A stretch of 35,965 bases of DNA from Oligoflexia bacterium (GTDB taxonomy: Bacteria; Bdellovibrionota; UBA1018), in assembly GCA_903881565.1 (NCBI GenBank), contig CAIRTR010000042.1:1-35965 (forward strand). Direction: 5' to 3'. This document shows, in pieces, positions 29,024 to 35,632 of the stretch; within the stretch, counting starts at the first letter, position 1; each line of letters begins with the position of its first letter. The notes below the pieces were generated by a model. That model was not told the origin of the DNA. It did no database searches and was given only the letters and a program-made list of their open reading frames with translations. The position numbers and the translations under genes were made by a program.

Positions 29024-29956
29024 ATGAGACTCATCGAATTTGCTTTACCGGCCTTGGTTCTTTTTTCATCTTCTGCCTTTGCGCTTTGTCCTGATCCCAC
29101 GGCCGGGGAAACTTTACAGGATTGTCCCTGGGCCGAAATCGCGCGCGATTTTTCCACCTTCGAAAAAGCTGCCCCGGAGCTTGTAAAACAAATCAGGCAG
29201 GATTCCACATCTCCCCTTCGATCCCTGTGGGGCGAGAGCATTAATTATGATGAACTGGCAAAAGGAGTTATTTTATCCTCAGAAATTCTGCACAAGCTCG
29301 AGACGCTCTTTGGGGTGCCGCAATCACCTTCAAGAACTTACGATCTGGATCGCTCTATTGCGCACGCAGGGCTTGAGCACACTTACGGTTATCTCTTTAG
29401 TTTGTTGAAAACGTCGTTTGGTTACAAGCGCGCTCGCTGGGTGCAAGGTGAAATCGAAAAGGGATTCGGGCTAAAGGCGGGACTCTTGAGCCCACGGACC
29501 TCCGAAGGGACGTTATTTTCAAATGCCAGCGTGTTTTTCGGGAAAATCGCGTTTCGAAAATCACCAAAAGAGAACGCGTTTCTTGAAAAGTCGGCTGGTG
29601 GAGCTGCGCAATCAATTCAATCCTTCAATGTAGGCGCCCTTCGAACCACACGAATCGAAGAAGTCATCGAAATCGAAACGCCCACAGTAGGGAAACGCAA
29701 AGTTCTTCTACGAACGGATTTAACTCCGTTTACAAAAGGAGCCAAGGAAGAAGGATGGCTGCTGATCTATTCAGTGGTCGATCCAGAGATCGGTGGGGCT
29801 CGCCTCATCACGGCATTCCCCATCAAAGCGGATTTCGCTCTTAATCTTCTTAAACCTGAAAACTTCGGCTTCAGAAAAGAACTCACTACTCGCTACAACG
29901 GATATATTCGGGGTCTCAGTGGGAAAAACCTGCCCGGCAATAGAGCCCTACAGTGA
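29024..29956 (+). CDS. Exported protein of unknown function, first gene of the ABC operon
   Basis: 310 residues with a signal peptide (SSSAFA then LCPDP). Two early cysteines (C22 and C34) in LCPDPTAGETLQDCPW could pair. The rest is mixed alpha/beta: a helical half with YDLDRSIAHAGLEHTYGYLF and a strand-rich half with FNVGALRTTRIEEVIEIETP and RLITAFPIKADF. No known family was recognised. The GTG start of the ABC ATPase overlaps its stop (GTGA), so it is co-translated with the exporter and may be a periplasmic partner or a substrate. Confidence 0.7.
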   Translation: MRLIEFALPALVLFSSSAFALCPDPTAGETLQDCPWAEIARDFSTFEKAAPELVKQIRQDSTSPLRSLWGESINYDELAKGVILSSEILHKLETLFGVPQSPSRTYDLDRSIAHAGLEHTYGYLFSLLKTSFGYKRARWVQGEIEKGFGLKAGLLSPRTSEGTLFSNASVFFGKIAFRKSPKENAFLEKSAGGAAQSIQSFNVGALRTTRIEEVIEIETPTVGKRKVLLRTDLTPFTKGAKEEGWLLIYSVVDPEIGGARLITAFPIKADFALNLLKPENFGFRKELTTRYNGYIRGLSGKNLPGNRALQ

Positions 29957-31029
29957 GCCATCACAAAAGTTCGCCGATCATCCAAGCCAAAAACCTCTCT
30001 CGCAGCTTTCGTTCGACAAAAAAGAAGGCGGGATTAATGGGATCTTTGGGGCTTCTGCTGAAACCCGAAATCCAAACGCACAATGCTCTCACCGATGTGA
30101 GCTTTGAGATTGAGGCCGGCTCCTTTACTGGACTCATCGGGGCAAATGGCGCAGGAAAGACGACTTTGCTCAAAATCCTTTCCGGCCTTATCCCTCCTTC
30201 TTCTGGGGAGGCCTTGGTTTTGGACGAAAACCCGTTCAAACGCTCGATGAGCTTTCGCAGGCAGATTTCGCTCGTCATGGGCCAAAAGGCTCAGCTCTGG
30301 TGGGACCTTCCCGCGGTGGACGCCTTTGATCTTCTACAGGCCATTTTTGAAATTCCAAAGAAGACCTATCAAGAGCGCCTCACCACACTCACTGAACTTT
30401 TGGATGTCACGCGCCTTTTGAACACCCAAATCCGCAGACTCTCGCTGGGAGAGCGGATGAAGATGGAACTCATTGGAGCGCTTCTTCATTGGCCAAAGAT
30501 CATCTTCCTGGATGAGCCCACAATCGGTCTTGATATCTTGGCCGCTCACAAACTTCGGGAGTTCCTGAAAGTCTTCAATCATAAAGAGAAGGCAACGATT
30601 ATCCTCACTAGTCACAACATGGACGATATCGAACGGCTTTGCTCACGGGTGATCATTCTCCGGGCGGGTAAAACCATTTACGATGGCACGCCCACTGGAC
30701 TTACGAACGAGGGAGAGCGCCGCCTGCGCGTCAGGCTGATGCAGACGCCAACTCTTGCTGAACTTTGCCAGATCACGGGACTCCCCGCGGAGCGAATTGA
30801 ATTACAGAAGATCGGCAATGAAGAGGCGAGCGAAAAAAACGAAGGCGAGAGCGAGACCCCCATTCAACCCACTCATGACTCTGTTTTGTTTTCGATCGGA
30901 CAAGAACAAATCGTTGGCGTCCTCCAAGCTCTCATGGGCAGAGTGCAAATCATCGACATGGGCATTGAGCAGCAAAGTCTGGAGCACGTGATCCAGAAAC
31001 TCTATTCGGAAGAGCGAGCCAGCGTATGA
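29953..31029 (+). CDS. ABC-2 type transporter ATP-binding protein
   Basis: 358 residues starting with GTG at 29953. Walker A GANGAGKT (63-70), signature LSLGERMKME (163-172), Walker B IIFLDEPTIGLD (183-194) and switch histidine TSHNMDD are intact. QKAQLWWDLPAVDAF is typical of the ABC_ATPase group that partners DUF990 (ABC2_membrane_6) permeases. Residues after 260 form a C-terminal tail with a charged EEASEKNEGESE insert. It overlaps the upstream gene by 4 nt and the first permease by 4 nt. Probably powers export of a lipid-like or amphipathic compound; the substrate cannot be read from the sequence. Confidence 0.95.
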   Translation: MSHHKSSPIIQAKNLSRSFRSTKKKAGLMGSLGLLLKPEIQTHNALTDVSFEIEAGSFTGLIGANGAGKTTLLKILSGLIPPSSGEALVLDENPFKRSMSFRRQISLVMGQKAQLWWDLPAVDAFDLLQAIFEIPKKTYQERLTTLTELLDVTRLLNTQIRRLSLGERMKMELIGALLHWPKIIFLDEPTIGLDILAAHKLREFLKVFNHKEKATIILTSHNMDDIERLCSRVIILRAGKTIYDGTPTGLTNEGERRLRVRLMQTPTLAELCQITGLPAERIELQKIGNEEASEKNEGESETPIQPTHDSVLFSIGQEQIVGVLQALMGRVQIIDMGIEQQSLEHVIQKLYSEERASV

Positions 31030-31826
31030 GCCTTGGAGTTTTAGGGTGGAGATGGGCCGCCCTTAGGAACGGCCTTCAAGACGCGACCGCCTATCGGATC
31101 GAGTTTTTATTCGAGTTCCTGGGCTCGGCCTTTGTCCCCGCCGCCGTTCAATGGATCGTCTGGTATGCGCTCTTTCAACTCGGGGGCGCCACCACGGTCG
31201 CCGGCATGACCTATGTCGACATGATCCAGTACACTCTGATGAGCGTGCTCTTCACCCAAATTCGCGGAGGCGACCAGGACTTTGAACTTCAGGAAATGAT
31301 CCGAACAGGAGGGTTGAGCAACTACCTTCTCAGGCCTGTCGGCGTCGTGGAATTTGTCTTCATTCGAGGACTCGCCCCTAAGCTTTTTATCGCAGGCTTT
31401 TGTCTGGTGATTGGTTTTGCCATTAGCCTGTTCTTTCCGTTTTCGGCACTGCGAATGCTCGGAGCCATGCTCCTGGCTTTGATGGGAAACATCATTCACT
31501 ACCAATTAGGGGCAGCGCTTTCGACGGTGGCATTTTATTGGGAAGAGGCGTTTGCCATGTTGATGGTGAAGAACCTCATCGTGAGTTTACTCTCTGGCGA
31601 GAAGATCCCTCTGAACCTCATCCCGGAGGCGTATTCTTGGATTTGGAAATCCACTCCTTTTTACCTCTACGTTTTTGCCCCCACCCAGTTTGCGCTGGGA
31701 AGATCGTCCATCACGCAGTTTGCCGGAGAGCTTTTGCTCTCACTCGTTTGGGTTGTGGCATGTTGGGGACTCATCCGGCTGACCTGGGGTTTGAGCATCA
31801 AACGTTATCTGAGCTTGGGAGGCTGA
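31026..31826 (+). CDS. ABC-2 permease (ABC2_membrane_6/DUF990), first
   Basis: 266 residues with about six membrane segments and a conserved amphipathic N-terminus (RNGLQDATAYRIEFLFEFLG). IQYTLMSVLF, then the GGDQDFELQEMIRTGGLSNYLLRPVG segment, is the hallmark cytoplasmic loop of the family, and IPLNLIPEAYSWIWKSTPF near the C-terminus is the second. It overlaps the ATPase by 4 nt and is followed by a paralogous permease 4 nt later, giving a heterodimeric membrane part. Confidence 0.92.
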   Translation: MSLGVLGWRWAALRNGLQDATAYRIEFLFEFLGSAFVPAAVQWIVWYALFQLGGATTVAGMTYVDMIQYTLMSVLFTQIRGGDQDFELQEMIRTGGLSNYLLRPVGVVEFVFIRGLAPKLFIAGFCLVIGFAISLFFPFSALRMLGAMLLALMGNIIHYQLGAALSTVAFYWEEAFAMLMVKNLIVSLLSGEKIPLNLIPEAYSWIWKSTPFYLYVFAPTQFALGRSSITQFAGELLLSLVWVVACWGLIRLTWGLSIKRYLSLGG

Positions 31827-31830
31827 ATCG

Positions 31831-32628
31831 ATGTGGAGCACCTTTAGGCGTTATGCCCGGATCTACGGCGTCCAGATAAAAAACAACTTCGTGCGCGAGG
31901 CCGTGTACCGGACAAACTTCCTCACCTCACTTGCCGTCGACATTGTCTGGATGGTCATCGAACTGAGTTTCTTTTCGATCCTCTACGCCAACACTCCGGT
32001 GCTGATGGGCTGGACCAAACCTCAGGTCTATTTTTTCTTGGGCATCTTCTTCGCCTCGGACGCCCTCTTCACTACTTTTTTTCAACGCAACTTTTGGCAG
32101 TTCTCGGATTTGGTCAACAAGGGTGAGTTGGACATTTTGCTGACCAAGCCGGTGCATCCTGTTTTTCTCGCGCTCTCTCGTTGGATTAATCTGACCAATA
32201 TTTTGAACTTCATCGTCGGCATGGTGATCGCCGTAAGGTTCGCCCCGGCGGCTGGATTCCTGGGTGGGTGGCATTGGCTAACGGTGGCGGCATGGCTCGC
32301 CTTTGGAGTTATCTCGGCATTACTTATTCGGTTCGCTTTTTCGATTTGGGTTTTTTGGACAGAGCGGAGTTGGGCGATATCGAGACTGTATTATCAGTTT
32401 TTCCACTTCGCATCTTTGCCAGACACCCTCTTCCCAAAAATGATCCGTTATCTTTTGCTCACGCTCGTGCCCGTTGCTTTTATTGGGAGCGTTCCGGCGC
32501 GCGCGATTCTTCACGGACTTGAGCCTTCGGAGTACGCATTGCTTGCGGGAGTGCTCACCTTCTTTTTTGTAGCCAACGGATTATTGTGGCACGCGGGACT
32601 TAGAAGGTATCAGAGCGTGAGCAGCTGA
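31831..32628 (+). CDS. ABC-2 permease (ABC2_membrane_6/DUF990), second
   Basis: 265 residues with about six membrane segments, paralogous to the preceding permease. The N-terminus (NNFVREAVYRTNFLTSLAVD) and the cytoplasmic loop NFWQFSDLVNKGELDILLTK match the family. FPKMIRYLLLTLVPVAFIGS and PARAILHG are the usual C-terminal motifs. It starts 4 nt after the first permease. It is the last gene of the export operon, ending 14 nt before the first copy of the GGTCGCC palindrome. Confidence 0.92.
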   Translation: MWSTFRRYARIYGVQIKNNFVREAVYRTNFLTSLAVDIVWMVIELSFFSILYANTPVLMGWTKPQVYFFLGIFFASDALFTTFFQRNFWQFSDLVNKGELDILLTKPVHPVFLALSRWINLTNILNFIVGMVIAVRFAPAAGFLGGWHWLTVAAWLAFGVISALLIRFAFSIWVFWTERSWAISRLYYQFFHFASLPDTLFPKMIRYLLLTLVPVAFIGSVPARAILHGLEPSEYALLAGVLTFFFVANGLLWHAGLRRYQSVSS

Positions 32629-32642
32629 CCCTCAGGCCGAGT

Positions 32643-32658
32643 GGTCGCCGCGGCGACC
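32643..32658. repeat. Palindrome copy 1, GGTCGCCGCGGCGACC
   Basis: A perfect 16-bp palindrome 14 bp after the permease stop and 150 bp before the parA start. Downstream flank GAATCTAATTTA is AT-rich. It is one of three identical copies in 450 bp; candidate binding site for ParB or for the winged helix of ParA. Confidence 0.75.
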
Positions 32659-32695: not shown

Positions 32696-32717
32696 ATCGG
32701 TCGCCGCGGCGACCGAT
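32696..32717. repeat. Palindrome copy 2, extended to 22 bp
   Basis: The same 16-bp core at 32699-32714 is here extended by ATC on the left and GAT on the right into a perfect 22-bp palindrome. Its centre is 56 bp from copy 1. A possible parA promoter lies about 27 bp further on. The right flank GATTTATT recurs after copy 3. Confidence 0.78.
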
Positions 32718-32808: not shown

Positions 32809-33867
32809 ATGGCATCATTTAAGGATTTACACTTCACACCAGCCGAATTCACAAACACCGCAAAGGTAAATAAACACCTATTTTCAGAGCTCGAAAGCGA
32901 CGGATTGATTCGCACGGTTCGCAAGAGAATCGGAAACGTCGATCGCAAGATGGTCACGCTTGAAGATATGCAGAACTACTTTCGCATCCTTCGCGCGAAC
33001 CCCGATGTTTTTTCACCCGTGTCAACAGACGCAGCTCCGGCTTCAGCGCAAGCGGCAGAAGATGCGACTTCTCAACCGGTCGCCGCGGCGACCAGATTTA
33101 TTCCGCAGCCTCCGAAAAATAAAATTCAGATGCTCTACAATGTGAAGGGTGGCACGGGTAAATCCACCTTGGCAGCTCAGTACGCGATGCGCGCCTCGAT
33201 GCTGGGACTCAATGTCCTGGCCATCGACTTGGATGGACAAGGTCACCTCACCGTGAATCTGGATATTTTGGACGCCCACGAAAGACCCACAATTTACGAC
33301 GTTTTGATCAACGACCTTCCGATCGCAAATGCGGTGATGAATGTCGCACCGGGTCTGGATCTGATTCCTGCGAACCTCGGTTTGTGCAACATCGAGATTC
33401 CACTCAATAACAAGCCGCGTCGTGAATACCGACTATCTGAAGCAATCAAAAAAATTGCTCACAACTACGACCTAATTATTGCGGACACCAACCCTGCAGC
33501 CTCTATCCTTAATAGTTCAATGTTAGTGGCGACCAACTTGGTGAACGTCGTTTGCGCAACAAACCCTCTCTCCTTCCACGGAATGTCTTTGGTCATGGCG
33601 ACCATCGAAGGCATGGAAAGAGAGTTCGGCCACGAGCTCCAAGTGAAGATCATCCCCAATATGTATGATAACCGCGAGGTCATCAGCCAGGAAGTTTTGG
33701 GCGAGCTTCGCTCCCAGTTCTCTGAGTTCTGCACGAAGGCCGTCGTCAATCGAAGCGCCGACCTGAATGAAGCCACCAAACGCCGTACTTCGGTTTGGGA
33801 TGTCAGCACCAAAGGAGTTGCTGCTCAAGACATCAATTCGCTTACAGAAGAGTTAATTCGTAATTAA
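32809..33867 (+). CDS. parA: ParA-family partition ATPase with N-terminal winged helix
   Basis: 352 residues. Residues 1-60 form a DNA-binding winged helix like plasmid type Ia ParA/SopA proteins (FTPAEFTNTAKVNKHLFSEL, then the wing RKRIGNVDRKMVTLEDM). An Ala/Pro-rich linker (70-100) leads to the deviant-Walker ATPase: NVKGGTGKST (K113 and K119), AIDLDGQGHLT (D140) and LIIADTNPAA. Family knowledge: ATP-bound ParA coats the nucleoid and moves ParB-parS complexes; type Ia members also repress their own operon through the N-terminal domain. Chromosomal ParA/Soj proteins lack that domain, so this pair looks plasmid-derived. The third palindrome lies inside the gene and encodes linker residues 90-95. 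AAGGAGG precedes the ATG. Confidence 0.93.
   Translation: MASFKDLHFTPAEFTNTAKVNKHLFSELESDGLIRTVRKRIGNVDRKMVTLEDMQNYFRILRANPDVFSPVSTDAAPASAQAAEDATSQPVAAATRFIPQPPKNKIQMLYNVKGGTGKSTLAAQYAMRASMLGLNVLAIDLDGQGHLTVNLDILDAHERPTIYDVLINDLPIANAVMNVAPGLDLIPANLGLCNIEIPLNNKPRREYRLSEAIKKIAHNYDLIIADTNPAASILNSSMLVATNLVNVVCATNPLSFHGMSLVMATIEGMEREFGHELQVKIIPNMYDNREVISQEVLGELRSQFSEFCTKAVVNRSADLNEATKRRTSVWDVSTKGVAAQDINSLTEELIRN
33078..33093. repeat. Palindrome copy 3, inside the parA coding region
   Basis: The identical 16-bp palindrome lies in the codons for PVAAAT, residues 90-95 of ParA, in the flexible linker between the winged helix and the ATPase domain. Its right flank AGATTTATTCCG resembles the flank of copy 2 (GATTTATTTTTCCG), so the shared block is longer than the palindrome. 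Confidence 0.78.
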
Positions 33868-33916: not shown

Positions 33917-34861
33917 ATGGAAGAAAACACCACTCTACCCGAAGCCGCCCCTATTACACCCTCGAACCCGATCAATGAAGCGGGTTCCAAAATCAAGACT
34001 CGCCAGGGAAGCGGTTACTTGAAGCAACTTTATTCGACTGCCCGCACTACTGCAGGGGTTACTCACACCCATTTGAAGAATTTGACGACCTTTCTCGTCA
34101 ACTTCGTCCCTGTTGATAAGGTTTTAGCCTCAGAGCTCCAAGTTCGCGTGCATTTTGATGATAGCGAAATCGAAGGCTTAGCCCACTCCATTAAAATGCA
34201 TGGCGTACTTCAACCGATTCTCGTCGTTCAAGACGGAGATCATTATAAGGTGATCGCCGGTGAGCGCCGTCTGCGTGCTGCCAAAATGGCGGGACTAGAT
34301 CGTATTCCGGCCCGCGTTCTTGCCACCGACGACAAGGCCACTCACGAAATCGCATTGCGTGAAAACCTTGATCGCGTTGACCTCCATCCCATTGAAGAAG
34401 GCGAAGGGTACGTTTCATTGCTTGAAACACAGGCCTATACCAGTCACGAAGGAATCGCCAAGGGCTTCGCCAAACCAAAATCCCGCATCACCGAATGCAT
34501 TGGTTTCACACGCCTTCCAGATGCGACCAAGCAGGAACTTCTTCGCTTAAACGTGAAGAATCGCTCGCTTCTTCGCCAGCTCCTCAACACTCCGGTTGAA
34601 CAACATCAGAAAATCATTGTGGATGCCGCTGGAAAAGAAGAACTACTTGCAGATCCAAGCGCGCTGCCTTCTGAAAAAGCTCCTAAAGAGCCAAAAGCTA
34701 AGAAGCCTGCTGTGGAATTTTCTTTCGTTTCCGACGACAAAGGCCTCAAAATCCCTGGTTTCAAATGGAAAACAGGCGAAGGAAACGAAAAGCTCACGGG
34801 TTATTGCGAAGCTTTGAAGAAGTTGGTTGCGGATATTGAAGAGAGACTGACGAGACCGTAA
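33917..34861 (+). CDS. parB: ParB-family partition protein
   Basis: 314 residues. The N-terminal CTPase/ParB-nuclease fold contains HGVLQPILVV, GERRLRAAKMAGLDRIP (from residue 115) and ENLDRVDLHPIEEGEGY (149-165), the arginine patch and motifs that bind CTP in ParB clamps. A helix-turn-helix follows (about 173-200, SHEGIAKGFAKPKSRITECI), then a charged Lys/Pro linker and an unusual C-terminal domain (about 265-314, VEFSFVSDDKGLKIPGFKWK). The preceding 60 residues form a variable N-terminus. A ribosome site AGGAG precedes the ATG, 49 bp after parA. Its DNA site is unknown, and the GGTCGCC palindromes are the obvious candidates. Confidence 0.93.
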   Translation: MEENTTLPEAAPITPSNPINEAGSKIKTRQGSGYLKQLYSTARTTAGVTHTHLKNLTTFLVNFVPVDKVLASELQVRVHFDDSEIEGLAHSIKMHGVLQPILVVQDGDHYKVIAGERRLRAAKMAGLDRIPARVLATDDKATHEIALRENLDRVDLHPIEEGEGYVSLLETQAYTSHEGIAKGFAKPKSRITECIGFTRLPDATKQELLRLNVKNRSLLRQLLNTPVEQHQKIIVDAAGKEELLADPSALPSEKAPKEPKAKKPAVEFSFVSDDKGLKIPGFKWKTGEGNEKLTGYCEALKKLVADIEERLTRP

Positions 34862-34907: not shown

Positions 34908-35303
34908 ATGAAGAGCGGTACAATATCGACTTTAATAATGGCATTACTCGCATTGAGCTTCACGGGCTGTGCGACTTATCAGTATGCGAAAAACGTCAAA
35001 ATGCTTTCTTATGACGAGAATGTCGCCAAGGGAAAATCTCTCGGGCCCGTCTTGGGAGAAGACTGCACTTGGACGATTCTCGGCTATAAACTCGGTGGAT
35101 ACCCCAAGCTCGAGCGCGCCTTCGCAAGCGCAAGAAACCAAACCAGCAGTGGCATTACCGACGGGTTTCATAGTCAGAGAAAAGTGAGCACCTCCGACAG
35201 TGCTGTACGATACATGAACAACGTCTCGACGGAATACGATGGATTCAATGCCGGAATCGTCGCAAAGAACTGTCTGATTGTGAAAGGTACAGGATATAGA
35301 TAA
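34908..35303 (+). CDS. Small lipoprotein, TRL-like
   Basis: 131 residues. Lipobox FTGC gives an acylated cysteine at residue 21. The mature part has GKSLGPVLGEDCTWTILGYKLGG, resembling the TRL-like family, and ends with NCLIVKGTGYR. Family role is unknown. A GGGAGCAGG ribosome site precedes the ATG. Its TAA stop overlaps the ATG of the next gene by one base (TAATG), and the two proteins look paralogous. Confidence 0.7.
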   Translation: MKSGTISTLIMALLALSFTGCATYQYAKNVKMLSYDENVAKGKSLGPVLGEDCTWTILGYKLGGYPKLERAFASARNQTSSGITDGFHSQRKVSTSDSAVRYMNNVSTEYDGFNAGIVAKNCLIVKGTGYR

Positions 35304-35632
35304 TGAAAAAGATTCAAATGATAATCATCGCTTCTTCACTAACAGCCCTGCTAGGTTGTGCCACCCCTCGCACTCTCGTGCTCAGAGCACCGGCCGTTTC
35401 TATGACCGAAATTTCCTTCGACGCAGGCGCCAAATTTTCATCCGCAGGGGCGATTAAAAGCCGATTTTGTCCGGGCGATAACGCTTCTACCGACGACGGA
35501 GATCTGAACATCGGTCTCATCGACGAACTGATCGCCAAAGCCCAAAAGACCTCGGGCGCAAAGTATATTGCCAATGCACAGTTTTTCACCCAAGGCAATT
35601 GCATGCTGCTTGAAGGCACGTCGATGAAATAG
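35303..35632 (+). CDS. Small lipoprotein, paralogue of the preceding one
   Basis: 109 residues. Lipobox LLGC (C19) follows a short signal. CATPRTLVLRAP at the start of the mature protein, the FCPGD segment and the C-terminal NCMLLEGTSMK parallel the CAT... and NCLIVKGTGYR of its neighbour, so both probably come from one duplication. The cysteines at FCPGD and NCML could form a disulfide. It is translationally coupled to the previous gene. Function unknown. Confidence 0.7.
   Translation: MKKIQMIIIASSLTALLGCATPRTLVLRAPAVSMTEISFDAGAKFSSAGAIKSRFCPGDNASTDDGDLNIGLIDELIAKAQKTSGAKYIANAQFFTQGNCMLLEGTSMK

Follow-up and report, generated by a model that had tools for sequence, protein, structure and literature searches.

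Three copies of a 16-letter palindrome, GGTCGCCGCGGCGACC, at a parAB locus of an Oligoflexia bacterium very likely represent the parS (centromere) sites of the adjacent genes, which encode a second, plasmid-like ParABS system; one copy is embedded in parA codons. Comparison of related genomes revealed that selection acts on the palindrome DNA whatever the peptide encoded, as seen from its occurrence in two reading frames and from its fixed wobble bases. Binding by ParB and the function of the sites are inferred, in the absence of binding data.

A parAB locus with three palindromes

The window, i.e. the whole stretch of DNA analysed here (35,965 nt; contig CAIRTR010000042.1), comprises the following features:

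29953-32628, + strand: ABC transporter operon upstream of parA, with an ATPase (29953-31029) and two ABC2_membrane_6 permeases (31026-31826 and 31831-32628), assigned by Pfam
32643-32658, no strand: upstream palindrome copy 1, proposed parS; most relatives also have upstream copies
32699-32714, no strand: upstream palindrome copy 2, proposed parS; symmetry reaches 32696-32717, followed by a T-rich tail, and is terminator-like by scan
32809-33867, + strand: parA, 352 aa; N-terminal winged-helix-like domain (~1-63), disordered linker (~66-100) and Walker ATPase from ~105 (P-loop K113); Pfam AAA_31, E=2.6e-34
33006-33108, + strand: parA linker DNA (~residues 67-100), the sole part of parA or parB with the motif in relatives
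33078-33093, no strand: palindrome copy within parA, GGTCGCCGCGGCGACC, proposed parS; it lies in the linker and corresponds to 'site beta' of relatives; its distance to the P-loop is kept in most relatives
33917-34861, + strand: parB, 314 aa; ParB_N with GERR CTP-binding motif, HTH domain and near-invariant recognition helix 188-197 (KSRITECIGF); Pfam ParB_N, E=5.2e-24, and HTH_ParB, E=2.5e-6

A first-pass annotation, made from sequence alone, had described the in-gene palindrome as the third copy of its kind, read as PVAAAT within a ParA linker free of structural constraint. These claims held. The palindrome occupies exactly positions 33078-33093, beginning at the third base of codon Pro90 and ending with codon Thr95 (P-VAAAT), its first base lying 67 nt 5′ of the codon for the Walker-A lysine (K113), and both upstream copies match it exactly. 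In the AlphaFold model of ParA (pLDDT 82 overall), residues 70-96, located between the folded N-domain (1-63) and the ATPase, are predicted with pLDDT < 50. The same annotation had pointed to an AT-rich flank, GATTTATT, common to the in-gene copy and copy 2. While this is true in the window (with a one-base offset), the flank adjoins only 2 of 172 related sites and was therefore ruled out as a component of the site.

The locus has the sequence hallmarks of a ParABS system: a gene for a Walker-type ParA ATPase (AAA_31 match and Soj/ParA fold match), a ParB with ParB_N (CTPase) and HTH domains encoded directly 3′ of parA, and short palindromic sites near the genes that track ParB. The N-terminal winged-helix domain on ParA is also a feature of type Ia ParAs. 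Fold matches of the ParA model included Soj as well as, over longer alignments, P1 ParA and V. cholerae ParA2, and the nearest solved structures for ParB were M. xanthus ParB (7bnk), Spo0J and Noc; the ParB model was of moderate quality (pLDDT 69, pTM 0.38) and served fold assignment only. Downstream of parB lie two small lipoprotein-like frames (34908-35300 and 35303-35629) without Pfam or NCBIfam matches. With its extended symmetry and T-rich tail, copy 2 (32696-32717) could also terminate the ABC transporter operon.

A window scan returned three palindrome matches against a shuffle mean of 0.19, and none of 100 shuffles reached three. Pattern searches of the whole assembly (4.56 Mb, 323 contigs) found these three exact copies only, all at the parAB locus, the in-gene copy 0.37 kb from the upstream pair. 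The next-nearest matches anywhere in the 4.56 Mb carried two mismatches and were no commoner than those of a reversed control pattern.

A second system on the chromosome

Another ParB in this genome, on contig C232, has canonical TGTTCCACGTGGAACA sites of its own, making the parAB of the window a second system. The canonical parS, TGTTNCACGTGNAACA, has no match in the window, where the palindrome is GGTCGCCRYGGCGACC. Caulobacter ParB residue R173 is invariant among parS-specific ParB variants (PMC7383237); an arginine at the equivalent position, mapped through alignments, is missing in the ParB studied here, with Lys188 found in all 35 sequences. In three genomes the second parAB shares a contig with dnaA, at distances of 158 kb (G037), 179 kb (G023) and 309 kb (G047), and the identical three-gene ABC transporter order was found 5′ of parA in 18 of 21 loci. 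Both observations argue for a stable chromosomal locus rather than a passing plasmid. Elsewhere in the genome, a further ParA-like ATPase frame (G000:C315:7668-8456) matched the ParA alignment with E=1.3e-32.

Co-occurrence of the motif with parB

Among 55 genomes of the order, all 47 with this parB contained GGTCGCCNNGGCGACC, in one to eight copies each, and seven of the eight without the gene lacked the motif (Fisher, 4e-8). The eighth (G042) had three motif copies; a similar parA, truncated by the contig end, starts 145 bp after one of them. The reversed control pattern was absent from all 55 genomes. Relatives are mostly represented by draft metagenome assemblies, and site counts vary with the motif threshold.

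The sites conform to a proposed 16-bp consensus, YGGTCGCC-RY-GGCGACCR, with RY as the centre dinucleotide in 146 of 147 cases. Where neighbouring sites lay less than 120 bp apart, the commonest spacing was 46-51 bp. Motif copies mostly resided at the parAB locus, yet some genomes also had sites elsewhere or at upstream distances above 1 kb. For instance, GGTCGCCACGGCGACC occurs near the 3′ end of an ftsZ-like gene (L066:1558; G024:C15:30057), where it reads SVATATV, in a genome whose own parA linker site is lost. Two genomes of one genus (L060:1568 in G018 and L061:1520 in G029) carry an off-locus copy at apparently the same place, between CheW-like and AMP-ligase-like genes, suggestive of conserved distant sites. 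In a further genome, GGTCGCCATGGCGACC lies in an mnmG-like gene ~3.2 kb from the canonical parB (L070:1497; G005:C104:26996).

Selection on the DNA of the linker site

Conservation was assessed in 46 related parA genes from 30 genera. Allowing at most one mismatch, the linker motif was present in 39 of these genes and 28 of the genera. At the same threshold, the motif occurred 47 times in 7.0 kb of linker sequence and was absent from the sequences of the N-domain (7.7 kb), the ATPase (33.3 kb) and parB (36.6 kb). Two positions prevail: site beta usually begins 67 nt 5′ of the P-loop lysine codon and reads xVAxAT, and site alpha, often located just past the N-domain, reads GRHGDQ or GRRGDQ (GR[HR]GD[QRH] overall). 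Only the xVAxAT frame was found in 24 genes, only GR[HR]GD in nine, both in six and neither in seven; the GR[HR]GD[QRH] frame was thus used in 15 genes. On the ParA + ParB tree, these frame labels require 12 changes.

The first-pass annotation had inferred selection on DNA as well as on protein. A comparison of synonymous sites across the 46 genes did not refute this idea, and its DNA part was supported by the wobble bases and the second frame. In the 27 genes encoding [VI]AxAT at this place, 155 of 161 third codon positions agree with the palindrome, where the codon use of each genome predicts ~51; taking a single genome per genus, 104 of 108 agree. The free central dinucleotide encodes the middle residue of xVAxAT, which accordingly varies (A, V, T, E or M). 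Two controls from the same genes differ: at invariant residues of the ATPase domain with fourfold-degenerate codons, the most frequent codon is used in a mean of 44% of genomes (maximum 70%), and codon choice is unrestrained across GxGAxxAG, a conserved peptide of the linker. That peptide is present in 25 ParA linkers, though not in that of the window (33006-33108).

The in-gene copy is not essential everywhere, being absent or degenerate in seven of the 46 parA genes. Five of the seven belong to a single genus (g30), in which the in-gene site is decaying (GATCGCC, AATCGCC or lost) while the upstream copies persist and the peptide IAAAT is kept; the in-gene copy is therefore dispensable in some lineages.

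Distant relatives and plasmids

Across 369 genomes of the phylum, only one other ParA of this kind was found (G118/L056), with identities to the present system of 42% for ParA and 28-33% for ParB. Its parA linker contains TTTCGCCGTGGCGAAA, which reads FRRGET in the same frame as site alpha, and TTTCGCCACGGCGAAA lies directly 5′ of its parB. The 5.6-Mb genome has no further copies; both half-sites of this variant are altered alike, and the two copies agree with each other.

Searching plasmids with the L056 ParB retrieved four endosymbiont plasmids, each with a palindrome 2-14 bp past the parB stop codon: GGTCGCCACGGCGACC, which fits the same consensus as the window sites, in CP113872, GTTCGCGGCCGCGAAC in CP113871, GGTCGCAACTGCGACC in NZ_CP104165 and GTTCGCCATGGCGAAC in CP101108, the last with a second copy, GTTCGCCGTGGCGAAC, upstream of parA. 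The four plasmid stretches (40-50 kb each, 31-33% GC) gave no other matches, fewer than 0.001 being expected, and no palindrome copies were found inside parA in these relatives. The palindrome is thus linked to this family of ParBs in more than one phylum. That the chromosomal system arose from a plasmid is the simplest interpretation and a likely one, inferred without a rooted tree. Among ParB relatives in IMG/VR, identity did not exceed 52% over short stretches and was 33-43% in long matches.

ParB as the likelier binder

In the genomes examined, ParA and ParB were always gained or lost together and, consequently, presence or absence alone cannot decide which of them binds the palindrome. 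Like the site itself, the recognition helix of ParB (188-197) hardly varies (0.15 bit per column), whereas the candidate recognition helix in the N-domain of ParA is variable (1.85 bits per column), pointing to ParB as the probable binder, an inference without binding data. Within the ParB helix, Glu193 is kept in all five plasmid-type ParBs; the aligned residue in the canonical ParB of this genome is Asn.

Alternative explanations

The palindromes might serve as operators bound by the ParA N-terminal winged-helix domain. ParA would then repress its own operon as type Ia plasmid ParAs do, with the in-gene copy as a downstream operator. In favour, ParA does have such a domain, the longer alignments of its model are to P1 ParA and V. 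cholerae ParA2, and the upstream copies lie near where the parA promoter must be. However, the candidate recognition helix of this domain varies while the site is constant, plasmid relatives carry the palindrome 3′ of parB rather than at the parA promoter, and some genomes have sites more than 1 kb upstream or elsewhere. We consider this explanation very unlikely.

Next, the palindromes could act in the transcript, as RNA hairpins or intrinsic terminators. Copy 2 indeed has a T-rich tail and a terminator score, and the sequence is able to form a hairpin of 6-9 bp. Yet, of 32 sites that differ from the motif, only one is compensated and the other 31 disrupt pairing, the opposite of what characterizes RNA structure; folding is weak (z-scores of -0.7 to -1.8); and the in-gene copy lies within an open frame and lacks a T tract. 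This possibility was rejected and is all but excluded. Conservation of the peptide instead of the DNA, with PVAAAT as a functional piece of the ParA linker, would accommodate the 27 of 46 genes that encode [VI]AxAT at equal distance from the P-loop and the retention of IAAAT in genus g30 during decay of the DNA site, but is likewise virtually ruled out, as identical DNA is read in the other frame (GRHGDQ) in 15 genes, third codon positions are fixed, and the nearby GxGAxxAG shows the reverse pattern of a fixed peptide and free codons.

Proposed mechanism

Under the preferred parS reading, ParB dimers would bind the 16-bp site through the HTH domain, load there as CTP-dependent clamps and spread across parA and the upstream intergenic region. 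ParB would stimulate the ParA ATPase, thereby moving or positioning this part of the chromosome, and its loading over parA may tune or repress transcription of the parAB operon. As a member of the cluster, the in-gene copy would provide an extra loading site, written through the codons of the ParA linker, which would tolerate it because it has little structure. The system would be related to, and probably derived from, the plasmid family whose parS mostly lies just 3′ of parB. ParB binding, clamp loading with CTP, segregation or stabilization of the replicon, autoregulation and plasmid origin all remain inferences.

A bolder reading holds that these chromosomes carry two complete, non-cross-reacting ParABS systems, the second derived from a plasmid family, with its centromere running through parA and the extended linker perhaps resulting from parS DNA that was inserted and retained. 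The evidence leaves this reading slightly short of being favoured.

Relation to known partition systems

Canonical chromosomal ParABS systems (Spo0J/ParB with parS TGTTNCACGTGNAACA), including that of Bdellovibrio bacteriovorus (PMC10547168, PMC7186360), share with the window system a ParB fold with CTP-binding motif and HTH, clustered 16-bp palindromes near parAB and a Walker ParA. They differ in site sequence and recognition helix; moreover, the window ParA has an N-terminal winged-helix domain, and the window system is a second one beside canonical ParB/parS, with a recurrent site within parA. In-gene sites are known in canonical systems, for instance a B. subtilis parS within spo0J.

The endosymbiont plasmids (Candidatus Megaera, Bandiella and Cardinium; CP113872, CP113871, NZ_CP104165 and CP101108) have the same palindrome or a variant of it, G[GT]TCGC....GCGA[AC]C, at the parAB locus only, as well as Glu193 in ParB and, on three of the plasmid ParAs compared, an N-terminal extension. 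They differ in that the palindrome lies just 3′ of parB (once 5′ of parA), the ParA linker is short and ParB is 27-31% identical. Type Ia plasmid partition systems (P1 ParA; ParA2 of V. cholerae chromosome 2) have the ParA N-terminal winged-helix domain in common with the window system, including the fold match over longer alignments; however, the window ParB is nearer to Spo0J/Noc than to KorB by structure search, and its sites lie upstream of and inside parA.

The repABC replicons (PMC9040568) also have several parS distributed in and around the partition operon, including sites at the repB 5′ end or within neighbouring genes, yet these are plasmid or chromid replicons with repC and another site consensus. 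The repABC parS consensus is GTTN4GCN4AAC. Nucleoid occlusion by Noc at NBS sites (PMC7383237) offers a parallel: Noc is a paralogue of ParB, its recognition helix has diverged, and its own palindrome coexists with ParB/parS on one chromosome. Noc, however, lacks a ParA partner and does another job, and the NBS sequence differs. The papers searched contained nothing relevant on the site sequence or on a second ParAB in these bacteria.

The palindrome thus appears to define an undescribed parS family linked to a specific ParB recognition helix, with Glu193 as the predicted specificity residue, and the locus represents an unusual case of a second chromosomal ParABS kept across ~30 genera. It also provides a clear natural example of a DNA site shaping coding sequence: two frames use the same 16 bp, and a protein motif nearby serves as control. 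If the bolder reading were true, centromere DNA, and not the function of the protein, would determine the sequence of this ParA segment.
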